Positions 42,774 through 46,525 of a DNA stretch of 47,030 nt are shown piece by piece. Numbering within the stretch: position 1 is the first letter of the stretch; the number at the start of each line of letters is the position of its first letter. Under the pieces are notes generated by a model. It had not been told where the DNA came from. It worked only from the letters and a program-made list of their open reading frames with translations, and searched no databases. The DNA lies in assembly GCA_026395795.1 (NCBI GenBank), contig JAPLYB010000037.1, positions 1 to 47,030 on the forward strand, written 5' to 3'. This DNA comes from Candidatus Pacearchaeota archaeon. Its GTDB lineage: Archaea > Nanobdellota > Nanobdellia > Pacearchaeales > UBA284. The translations under genes and the position numbers were made by a program.

Positions 42774-43988
42774 ATGATTACTAAACAACCTGTATTGAAT
42801 ATTGGACTTGTGGGACATATCGATCATGGAAAAACGACTGTTTTGTATCATCTCACAGGAGTCTGGGCTGACAAACATTCTGAAGAATTAAAGAGAGGAA
42901 TAACAATCAAGCTAGGATATGCTGATGTAATTATTCACAAATGTACAAAATGTAATCAGTATGCCATAAAAAAAACATGTTCTTGCGGAGGCGTTGCAGA
43001 GCCTGTTAAGTATGTTAGTTTTATCGATGCTCCGGGGCATGAGATGCTTATGGCAACTATGCTTGGAGGAGCAGCCATAATTGATGTTGCTCTTTTGACA
43101 ATCGCTGCAAATGAACCTTTCCCTCAGCCACAAACAAAAGAACATTTGCTTGCTCTTGAATGCAAAGGTGTTAAACAGATTATAATCCTGCAGAACAAAA
43201 TAGATTTAGTTACAAAAGAAAAAGCAATTGAACAGTATAAAAAAATTAAAGAATTTGTTAAAGGAAGTGTTGCTGAAAATGCAAGAATTATTCCGATATG
43301 TGCACAGCAAGATGTTAACATAGACCAGATTTTGGAAGAGATTAATACAATTGAAAGTCCTAAGAGAGACACGGAAAGCAAACCTTTGTTCTTAATCGCA
43401 AGAACTTTTGATATTAACAGACCTGGAACTGAGATAAAAGATTTGCAGGGGGGAGTTTTAGGAGGAATCCTGAAATCAGGAAAGTTGAAGATAGGAGATA
43501 TAATTGAGATTAAACCAGGAGAAAGTTTGAAGAAAAAAGACCAAACAATATACAAAACAGTAAAGACAAAGATAATCGCATTGCGTGCTGGAAAAAATGA
43601 ATTGCAAGAAGTAACTCCTTCTGGATCTTTAGCAATACAAACTGCTTTAGATCCATTTATGACAAAATCAGATGGACTTGTAGGATGTGTTGCTGGTTTA
43701 GACAATTCACTGCCAGAAATTTCTTATACTCTTAAGTTAAAAACAACATTATTCAAAGAAATTGTCGGAGCGAAAGAACAATTAAAAATAGATCCTCTTA
43801 AAACAAGTGAATTTTTGATGTTGAGTGTTAATACAAGCACGACAATAGGAAAAGTTATGAAAATGAAAGGCAATGAAGTTGAGCTTGCTTTGAAAATTCC
43901 TGTTCTGCCTTTCAAAGGAGACAGAGTTGGACTAGCAAGAAATTATCAAAGCCATTGGAGATTAGTTGGTTGGGGAGAAATTCTTTAA
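42774..43988 (+). CDS. eif2g: Translation initiation factor aIF2 subunit gamma
   Basis: NIGLVGHIDHGKTTVLYHLTGVWADKHSEELKRGITIKLGYAD; zinc knuckle CTKCNQYAIKKTCSCGG; RTFDINRPGTEIKDLQGGVLGGIL. Confidence 0.97.
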   Translation: MITKQPVLNIGLVGHIDHGKTTVLYHLTGVWADKHSEELKRGITIKLGYADVIIHKCTKCNQYAIKKTCSCGGVAEPVKYVSFIDAPGHEMLMATMLGGAAIIDVALLTIAANEPFPQPQTKEHLLALECKGVKQIIILQNKIDLVTKEKAIEQYKKIKEFVKGSVAENARIIPICAQQDVNIDQILEEINTIESPKRDTESKPLFLIARTFDINRPGTEIKDLQGGVLGGILKSGKLKIGDIIEIKPGESLKKKDQTIYKTVKTKIIALRAGKNELQEVTPSGSLAIQTALDPFMTKSDGLVGCVAGLDNSLPEISYTLKLKTTLFKEIVGAKEQLKIDPLKTSEFLMLSVNTSTTIGKVMKMKGNEVELALKIPVLPFKGDRVGLARNYQSHWRLVGWGEIL

Positions 43989-44904: not shown

Positions 44905-45687
44905 TTATTTTTTCCTCCATAGGATTATCTTGCTTGTTATAAATGTCACGAGCAAAATCCATTGGCTTTCTGCTAGTCCTAAGAAATAATTTTGATAAAC
45001 CCTTAAGAAATCATTGAAAAATCTGAAGAAAGAATATAAAATTAAGAAGCAGAGGAATAATGCGCCATTTTTATTTAATAATTTCTTGAACTTTGTTAAT
45101 TTTGCATCTGGATTCTCTTTTATTTTTTTAAACCAAATTAATAATCCGAAGATAACTAAACAATAAAGTGTTTCATATAACTGAGTTGGATGTCTTAAGA
45201 TATCTCCGGCAACTTGAATTGCCCATGGAAGGCTCGAGGCAATTCCAAAATCATCCCAATTTAGGAAACAGCCAATCCTGGCAATCGCAAGTCCTAATGC
45301 AAGATAAGGTGCAACAGTATCTAAAATTTGACTGAAGCGAATTTTGTCTTTGTTCTTCTTGCAGTAGAGCCACACAAAGAGAATAGAGAGGATAATTCCC
45401 CCATAACTTGTTTCTCCCCCTTTTCCAAATGCGAGAATTTCCAAGGGTTTAGAAATAAAATAAGAAAGATTCTCAAAAATAAAAAATAATCTTCCTCCGA
45501 TTATCGCTCCTAAAAGAATGAGCAGAAGGATGCTCCAGATTGTGTTCTCTTCTATCCCTCTTTTTCTTGCTTCTCGAAAAAATAGTATGGATGTAATAAG
45601 AAATGCCAAGACAAAGAATGCTCCCCAAGTGTAAATTGTAAAATTTCCAATCTTAAGCAGATAATGAATTGGTGTTAGTGGAATCAT
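44905..45687 (-). CDS. lgt: Prolipoprotein diacylglyceryl transferase (Lgt)-like
   Basis: GAIIGGRLFFIFE; GGETSYGGIILSIL; LGLAIARIGCFLNWDDFG; SLPWAIQ...RHPTQLYETLY; polytopic. Confidence 0.88.
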   Translation of the reverse strand: MIPLTPIHYLLKIGNFTIYTWGAFFVLAFLITSILFFREARKRGIEENTIWSILLLILLGAIIGGRLFFIFENLSYFISKPLEILAFGKGGETSYGGIILSILFVWLYCKKNKDKIRFSQILDTVAPYLALGLAIARIGCFLNWDDFGIASSLPWAIQVAGDILRHPTQLYETLYCLVIFGLLIWFKKIKENPDAKLTKFKKLLNKNGALFLCFLILYSFFRFFNDFLRVYQNYFLGLAESQWILLVTFITSKIILWRKK

Positions 45688-45790
45688 TAATAAAACTATA
45701 GAAGAGGACTTAAATATTTCTTGTATAATTGTTTAGTAGTAACAAAAGAAAAGATTTATAAATAAAAATTGCTTTGTATGAATCTAAAAA

Positions 45791-46525
45791 ATGTCATCAA
45801 AAATTTTAGTCTGTGGGCTTGTTGCTTTACTTGCTTGTTCTCCAAGACATGAAACTGGAAATGTTCATGCTGTTAATATGACCCAAGCATCTCAAAAAGC
45901 ATATAATGGGCAATATGATTATGTTACAGTCCATAGTGCTGGTTCTGTAGCAGAAGATCATCTGAGACAGTTTACTGCATTAACACTTTATAGAACGAAT
46001 GTTTTAAGAAATCCTCAATCTGTTTTGTTTCTTGACGGTTATGAATGCAGGGGAAGAAGTCTCGAGCAGACATTTGTGGAAGATGAAAGACTTGTTGATC
46101 AAATGAAACATTTCCCAGATTCAGAGCATTTAGAAATTGCTCATGCACACAACACTCCAGCAAATACTCAAAGATTAAGAGAAAGAGGACATCAAGAAAA
46201 ATTGAAAATTTTAATTGTTACTTCTGACTATCATGCTCCGAGAGTTGCACAAACAACAGGATATTATTTTACAGAAAACATGCCAGAACAAATTGATGTT
46301 TTAGGAATTAATTCTGGAAGAGCAGACATGAAAGTTTTAGCAAAAGAATTTTTTGCAAGATGGCAAACTTGGGCAATTTTTAAACATTTAGAAAAAGGTT
46401 CTAATCCAGAGAAGTTAACTCAAGCATATGATACACAAATTTATAATGTTATTGATGGAGCTCTTGTAAAAAAGCCCTTACTTGAACAAGGAAGAATATT
46501 CTTAAGAGAATATTTGAGGAGATAA
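45791..46525 (+). CDS. Predicted lipoprotein with DUF218 (YdcF/SanA-like) domain
   Basis: Signal MSSKILVCGLVALLAC|SPRHE with lipobox LLAC; DUF218-like ILIVTSDYHAPRVAQTTGYYF. Confidence 0.75.
   Translation: MSSKILVCGLVALLACSPRHETGNVHAVNMTQASQKAYNGQYDYVTVHSAGSVAEDHLRQFTALTLYRTNVLRNPQSVLFLDGYECRGRSLEQTFVEDERLVDQMKHFPDSEHLEIAHAHNTPANTQRLRERGHQEKLKILIVTSDYHAPRVAQTTGYYFTENMPEQIDVLGINSGRADMKVLAKEFFARWQTWAIFKHLEKGSNPEKLTQAYDTQIYNVIDGALVKKPLLEQGRIFLREYLRR

Follow-up and report, generated by a model that had tools for sequence, protein, structure and literature searches.

The archaeon whose 47,030-nucleotide stretch of DNA was analyzed here (the window) probably encodes a bacterial-type lipoprotein maturation route, in which a working but divergent prolipoprotein diacylglyceryl transferase (Lgt) of the C-type feeds a signal peptidase II (Lsp). 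In the proposed pathway, this C-type Lgt would take secreted proteins that bear a lipobox and transfer to their lipobox cysteine a glyceryl group, di-alkyl or di-acyl, drawn from a phospholipid of the membrane. The Lsp, whose gene lies on another contig, would then cut directly before that cysteine, and the mature lipoprotein would remain anchored on the outer face of the membrane. This suggests a possible means of anchoring cell-surface proteins in these putative symbionts.

According to papers published in 2025 and 2026, Lgt is absent from archaea; a literature search pairing DPANN with prolipoprotein found no paper. AliA and AliB of Haloferax volcanii lipidate lipobox cysteines in archaea (PMC12186497; PMC13251419), but according to PMC13251419 they share no homology with the bacterial enzymes. 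The Lgt and Lsp genes of the archaea considered here have probably already been named automatically in public databases, so the surprise is an unrecognized distribution pattern, not a new protein fold. A large archaeal phylum has both genes together in ~61% of its sampled genomes, which presents a test case of an enzyme for bacterial ester phosphatidylglycerol confronted with archaeal or host-derived lipids.

An Lgt homolog with a conserved predicted fold

The earlier note had placed an Lgt-like gene and a divergent neighbor at the coordinates listed in Table 1, and both open reading frames lie exactly there. The Lgt-like protein proved to be real. Its match to the Pfam family LGT (PF01790) covers profile positions 2-239 of 240 (E 9.4e-54; 182.7 bits vs. 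a cut-off of 24.9), and in a profile search no other protein of the 957 kb assembly matched this family. The motifs GGR, RIGCFLNWDDFG, and HPTQLYE are present, and E. coli Lgt (5azb) is a sequence match (E 1.6e-13). An AlphaFold model built with 16 relatives has a mean pLDDT of 92.2, and a PDB search with this model returned 5azb as the sole match at E <= 0.001 (TM 0.82/0.75). The seven-helix Lgt fold is thereby predicted for the window protein. The TATA-like stretches of the intergenic region are candidate archaeal promoters.

Table 1. Features of the window and the lsp gene found elsewhere in the same genome
Feature	Position	Strand	Description	Basis
aIF2-gamma gene	42774..43988	+	Convergent neighbor of lgt; archaeal anchor of the contig	Pfam eIF2_C, GTP_EFTU
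lgt	44905..45687	-	C-type prolipoprotein diacylglyceryl transferase homolog, 260 aa	Pfam LGT, residue table, AlphaFold model
Divergent intergenic region	45688..45790		TATA-like stretches TTTATAAATA before the plus-strand gene and AAATATTTAAG before lgt	Sequence reading
DUF218-like (YdcF/SanA-like) gene	45791..46525	+	244 aa; candidate lipoprotein signal peptide MSSKILVCGLVALLAC	DUF218 match, lipobox filter
Lipobox codons L-L-A-C	45827..45838	+	Residues 13-16 of the DUF218-like protein	Translation
Transposase-like frame at contig end	46939..47028	-	WYNDVKPHKSLKFDELETP	
lsp (signal peptidase II)	G000:C19:7132-7560		Same genome, other contig	PF01252 82.2 bits, Pfam E 5e-23

Key residues and the lipid donor

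E. coli Lgt, whose numbering is used for all residue positions, requires Y26, H103, R143, N146, G154, and R239 (PMC13251419). Three of these six (R143, G154, and R239) are kept by the window protein, and W26, Y103, and C146 occupy the other three positions. The earlier note had named loss of essential residues as evidence against its reading, and the alignment shows such a loss in part. The full list of substitutions is Y26W, H103Y, G142A, N146C, E151D, and E243D. Equivalents of R246, Y235, and E202 are also kept. These residues, the predicted fold, and the HPxQLYE motif are shared with the E. coli enzyme (5azb/5azc), from which the window protein differs in its archaeal host and in an identity of just 24% in the structural alignment.

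Archaeal Lgts fall into two kinds. Canonical representatives carry almost all of the key residues, whereas the divergent C-type, to which the window protein belongs, has C146, in most cases together with W26 and frequently with Y or F at position 103. Bacterial Lgts of the C146-type (in Omnitrophota, Dethiobacter, WOR groups, Atribacterota, and others) share the motif RIGCFLN with the window protein and, like it, often have Y at 103 and D or C at 151. Most of them keep Y26, a position at which the window protein and the majority of its archaeal relatives carry W. Previous work describes Firmicutes Lgts with Y at 103 and more distantly related Lgts with C at 146, and it presumes low activity for a mycobacterial homolog with Y26H and N146C (PMC13251419). 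The same source states that monoderm Lgts do not complement E. coli. Furthermore, the H103Y variant fails to complement in E. coli (PMC4728403).

Given such changes, it must be asked whether the window protein keeps the Lgt fold but performs an altered job, with another donor or acceptor or with little transferase activity, the true enzymes being the canonical Lgts of other members of the phylum. This seems unlikely, albeit worth serious attention. Y26W, H103Y, G142A, and N146C all fit a changed job, as does the rarity of W26 in bacterial C-types compared with its typical presence in archaeal ones. The protein also scores below the cut-off of the NCBI equivalog TIGR00544 (106.7 vs. 118.9 bits), but two close relatives with the same W/Y/C pattern, G317 (122.5 bits) and G219 (125.8 bits), pass it. 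Moreover, the window protein is the only LGT-family match of a genome that also carries Lsp and lipobox proteins. Y103 and C146 are likewise seen in bacterial Lgts that are the sole LGT-family match of their genomes, so the residue changes in the window protein need not mean a loss of function. A single LGT match is found in 16 of the 20 genomes behind C-type loci, and 13 of those 16 are bacterial. The occurrence of bacterial C-types as the only detected Lgt, as in a 4.1 Mb Dethiobacter genome, suggests that this kind of enzyme works.

Residue loss of another sort is seen in three canonical-type Lgts from family f2 of the order (L040, L043, and L044, from genomes G281, G364, and G213), for which the alignment shows no counterparts of E202 and Y235. 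No Lsp was detected in these three genomes, and the fold of their Lgts is possibly used differently.

For the working C-type Lgt that we favor, the source of the lipid presents a further question. Profile searches of the window's own genome found no member of the GGGP synthase family (PF01884) and no CDP-alcohol phosphatidyltransferase (PF01066), for which all 14 controls were positive. Since this genome is 87.5% complete, the lipid genes in question may be part of what the assembly lacks. Among 100 genomes of the phylum, PF01066 is also lacking in 32 of the 91 that have Lgt, some of which are nearly complete. Archaea of this kind obtain lipid from their host. Thus, with neither family found in the genome, the donor lipid probably is acquired from a partner cell.

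A more speculative proposal is that archaeal C-type Lgts have re-tuned their donor pocket through Y26W, H103Y, and N146C, so that they pass an archaeal ether lipid or a host-derived lipid on to lipobox cysteines. This is offered tentatively, as an idea that might well prove wrong. If true, a bacterial-type lipoprotein pathway would operate on borrowed lipid of the opposite stereochemistry. As a separate observation, 59 of the 60 PF01066-positive genomes among the first 100 of the phylum have Lgt, and eight of the nine genomes that lack Lgt also lack PF01066 (Fisher p 0.003); this association could be shared genome reduction.

Lsp and lipobox-bearing proteins

A search for Lsp, which the earlier note had suggested, recovered a candidate in the same genome (Table 1). 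When aligned to the solved lipoprotein signal peptidase 6ryo, the protein keeps the aspartate motifs NxxDR and FNxAD as NMLDR and FNIAD. Its gene adjoins that for aRF1 (eRF1 domain of archaeal release factors) on contig C19, and its score lies below the NCBI lspA equivalog cut-off (59.9 vs. 73.95 bits).

Possible substrates were sought with a filter of our own, distinct from SignalP, that calls for a signal-peptide-like N terminus and a cysteine at the lipobox position, and expected counts were derived from cysteine frequency. In ~1.23 Mb of stretches pooled from ten genomes with both Lgt and Lsp, 16 lipobox frames were found vs. 2.0 expected, four of them from one locus and one of them the DUF218-like candidate of the window. 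In ~1.0 Mb from five genomes with neither gene, one frame was found vs. 1.3 expected. The difference between the two sets has a Fisher p of 0.001, in a sample that was enlarged twice, the second time following an interim look that had given p 0.01. Lipobox-bearing signal peptides are therefore enriched only in the genomes that carry Lgt and Lsp. The sample from the window's own genome holds four frames vs. 0.53 expected, and one of the candidates there has a putative Ig domain (He_PIG). Another candidate, from G317, has nuclease and lamin-tail domains (SNase/LTD).

The neighbor of lgt had been described as a lipobox-bearing protein with a YdcF/SanA-like core, and thus as a candidate substrate adjacent to its enzyme. 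The lipobox LLAC is indeed present and passes the filter. The core is only partly upheld: the motifs HNTPANT and VTSDYHAPRV, shared with YdcF/SanA-like DUF218 proteins, are legible, but the match to DUF218 (PF02698) falls just below the Pfam cut-off (26.0 vs. 27.6 bits). The two genes do lie side by side, divergent and 103 bases apart, which together with the lipobox could be taken to mean that enzyme and substrate were acquired jointly as a dedicated pair. Such a pairing is not conserved, however. The DUF218-like protein has no relative in the 108 other genomes of the order, which weakens the idea of an adjacent substrate, and in G317 and G219 lgt sits beside the aIF2-gamma gene without it. 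A dedicated pair is therefore highly improbable, and the adjacency gives little reason to regard the DUF218-like protein as a substrate.

In G283, lgt runs at its 3' end into the start of a DJ-1/PfpI gene that carries a clear lipobox, IAGC (L283:7506-8114 and L283:8080-8901, both on the minus strand). This overlap is a better enzyme-substrate neighborhood than the pair in the window, and translational coupling of enzyme and substrate is possible there.

Distribution, origin, and archaeal context

In a survey that covered 371 genomes of the phylum (Pacearchaeota/Woesearchaeota group), Lgt was found in 251 and Lsp in 243. Both are present in 228 genomes and neither in 105, with Lgt alone in 23 and Lsp alone in 15 (odds ratio 69, Fisher 4e-52, values that ignore kinship and are descriptive). 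Four named archaeal control genomes have no match to either gene, and most bacterial controls were positive. The B. subtilis control gave no Lgt match in this phylum-scale search. B. subtilis does have an lgt gene, so the Lgt and Lsp counts must be read as lower bounds. One 1.5 Mb genome (G078) has six LGT-family matches.

Within the order of the window the distribution is patchy, with 12 members having an Lgt match and many genomes lacking both genes. Such a pattern might be expected if the window gene were the decaying remnant of an Lgt inherited from an ancestor, neither expressed nor needed any longer. There is very little to recommend this reading, given the intact frame of 260 aa, the conserved buried motifs, the 60% identity to the G317 protein, and the retention of Lsp.

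The phylogenetic comparison with bacterial Lgts proposed in the earlier note places the window protein with archaeal C-types amid bacterial C-types, and its closest non-archaeal relatives are C146-type bacterial Lgts (up to 39% identity). Canonical archaeal Lgts are placed with canonical bacterial ones. Those of the Woesearchaeota group, such as L004 and L007, come from the same phylum, and in most genomes an Lsp accompanies them. They have every key residue and are nested in this way, with an origin separate from that of the C-type. A single clade for all archaeal Lgts was rejected (p-AU 0.0012), whereas one clade of archaeal C-types was not (p 0.735). The tree was built by a quick method, has several long branches, and includes few canonical bacterial sequences; for this reason no donor phylum is named. 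The locus scan used a narrower alignment, as the broad one was too diverse. Overall, these comparisons support an ultimate bacterial affinity of archaeal Lgts, with two kinds that have separate bacterial affinities. The horizontal acquisition suggested earlier thus holds with regard to affinity, but it would not be a lone event in one archaeon, given the spread of Lgt through the phylum. We infer that the pathway may have entered the phylum from bacteria at least twice, once for the canonical lineage and once for the C-type lineage, and that it was then largely kept.

The earlier note had deemed bacterial contamination unlikely, and its judgment is borne out. The window is the complete contig C8 of an assembly with an estimated contamination of 0.18%, and the genes for aIF2-gamma and S6e adjoin lgt. 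The G+C content is even (33.5% in lgt vs. 33.3% across the window). The convergent arrangement of lgt and the aIF2-gamma gene is common to three genera of the family, including G317, which was assembled as a single contig of 710,724 bases, and G219. The loci L045/L280 and L281 represent this neighborhood. The nearest proteins to the window Lgt, from G317 and G219 (54% identity for the latter), are both archaeal. Although no more than 2.2 kb separate lgt from a contig end and the LGT family is bacterial elsewhere, a contaminating or chimeric contig has a negligible chance of explaining the gene, and it was rejected on the basis of this synteny and the single-contig relative, in addition to the archaeal kinship, the uniform G+C, and the presence of lgt in two thirds of the phylum.

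The frame at the contig end (Table 1) resembles the tail of an IS481/IS3-type transposase, and the contig therefore probably was broken inside an insertion sequence.
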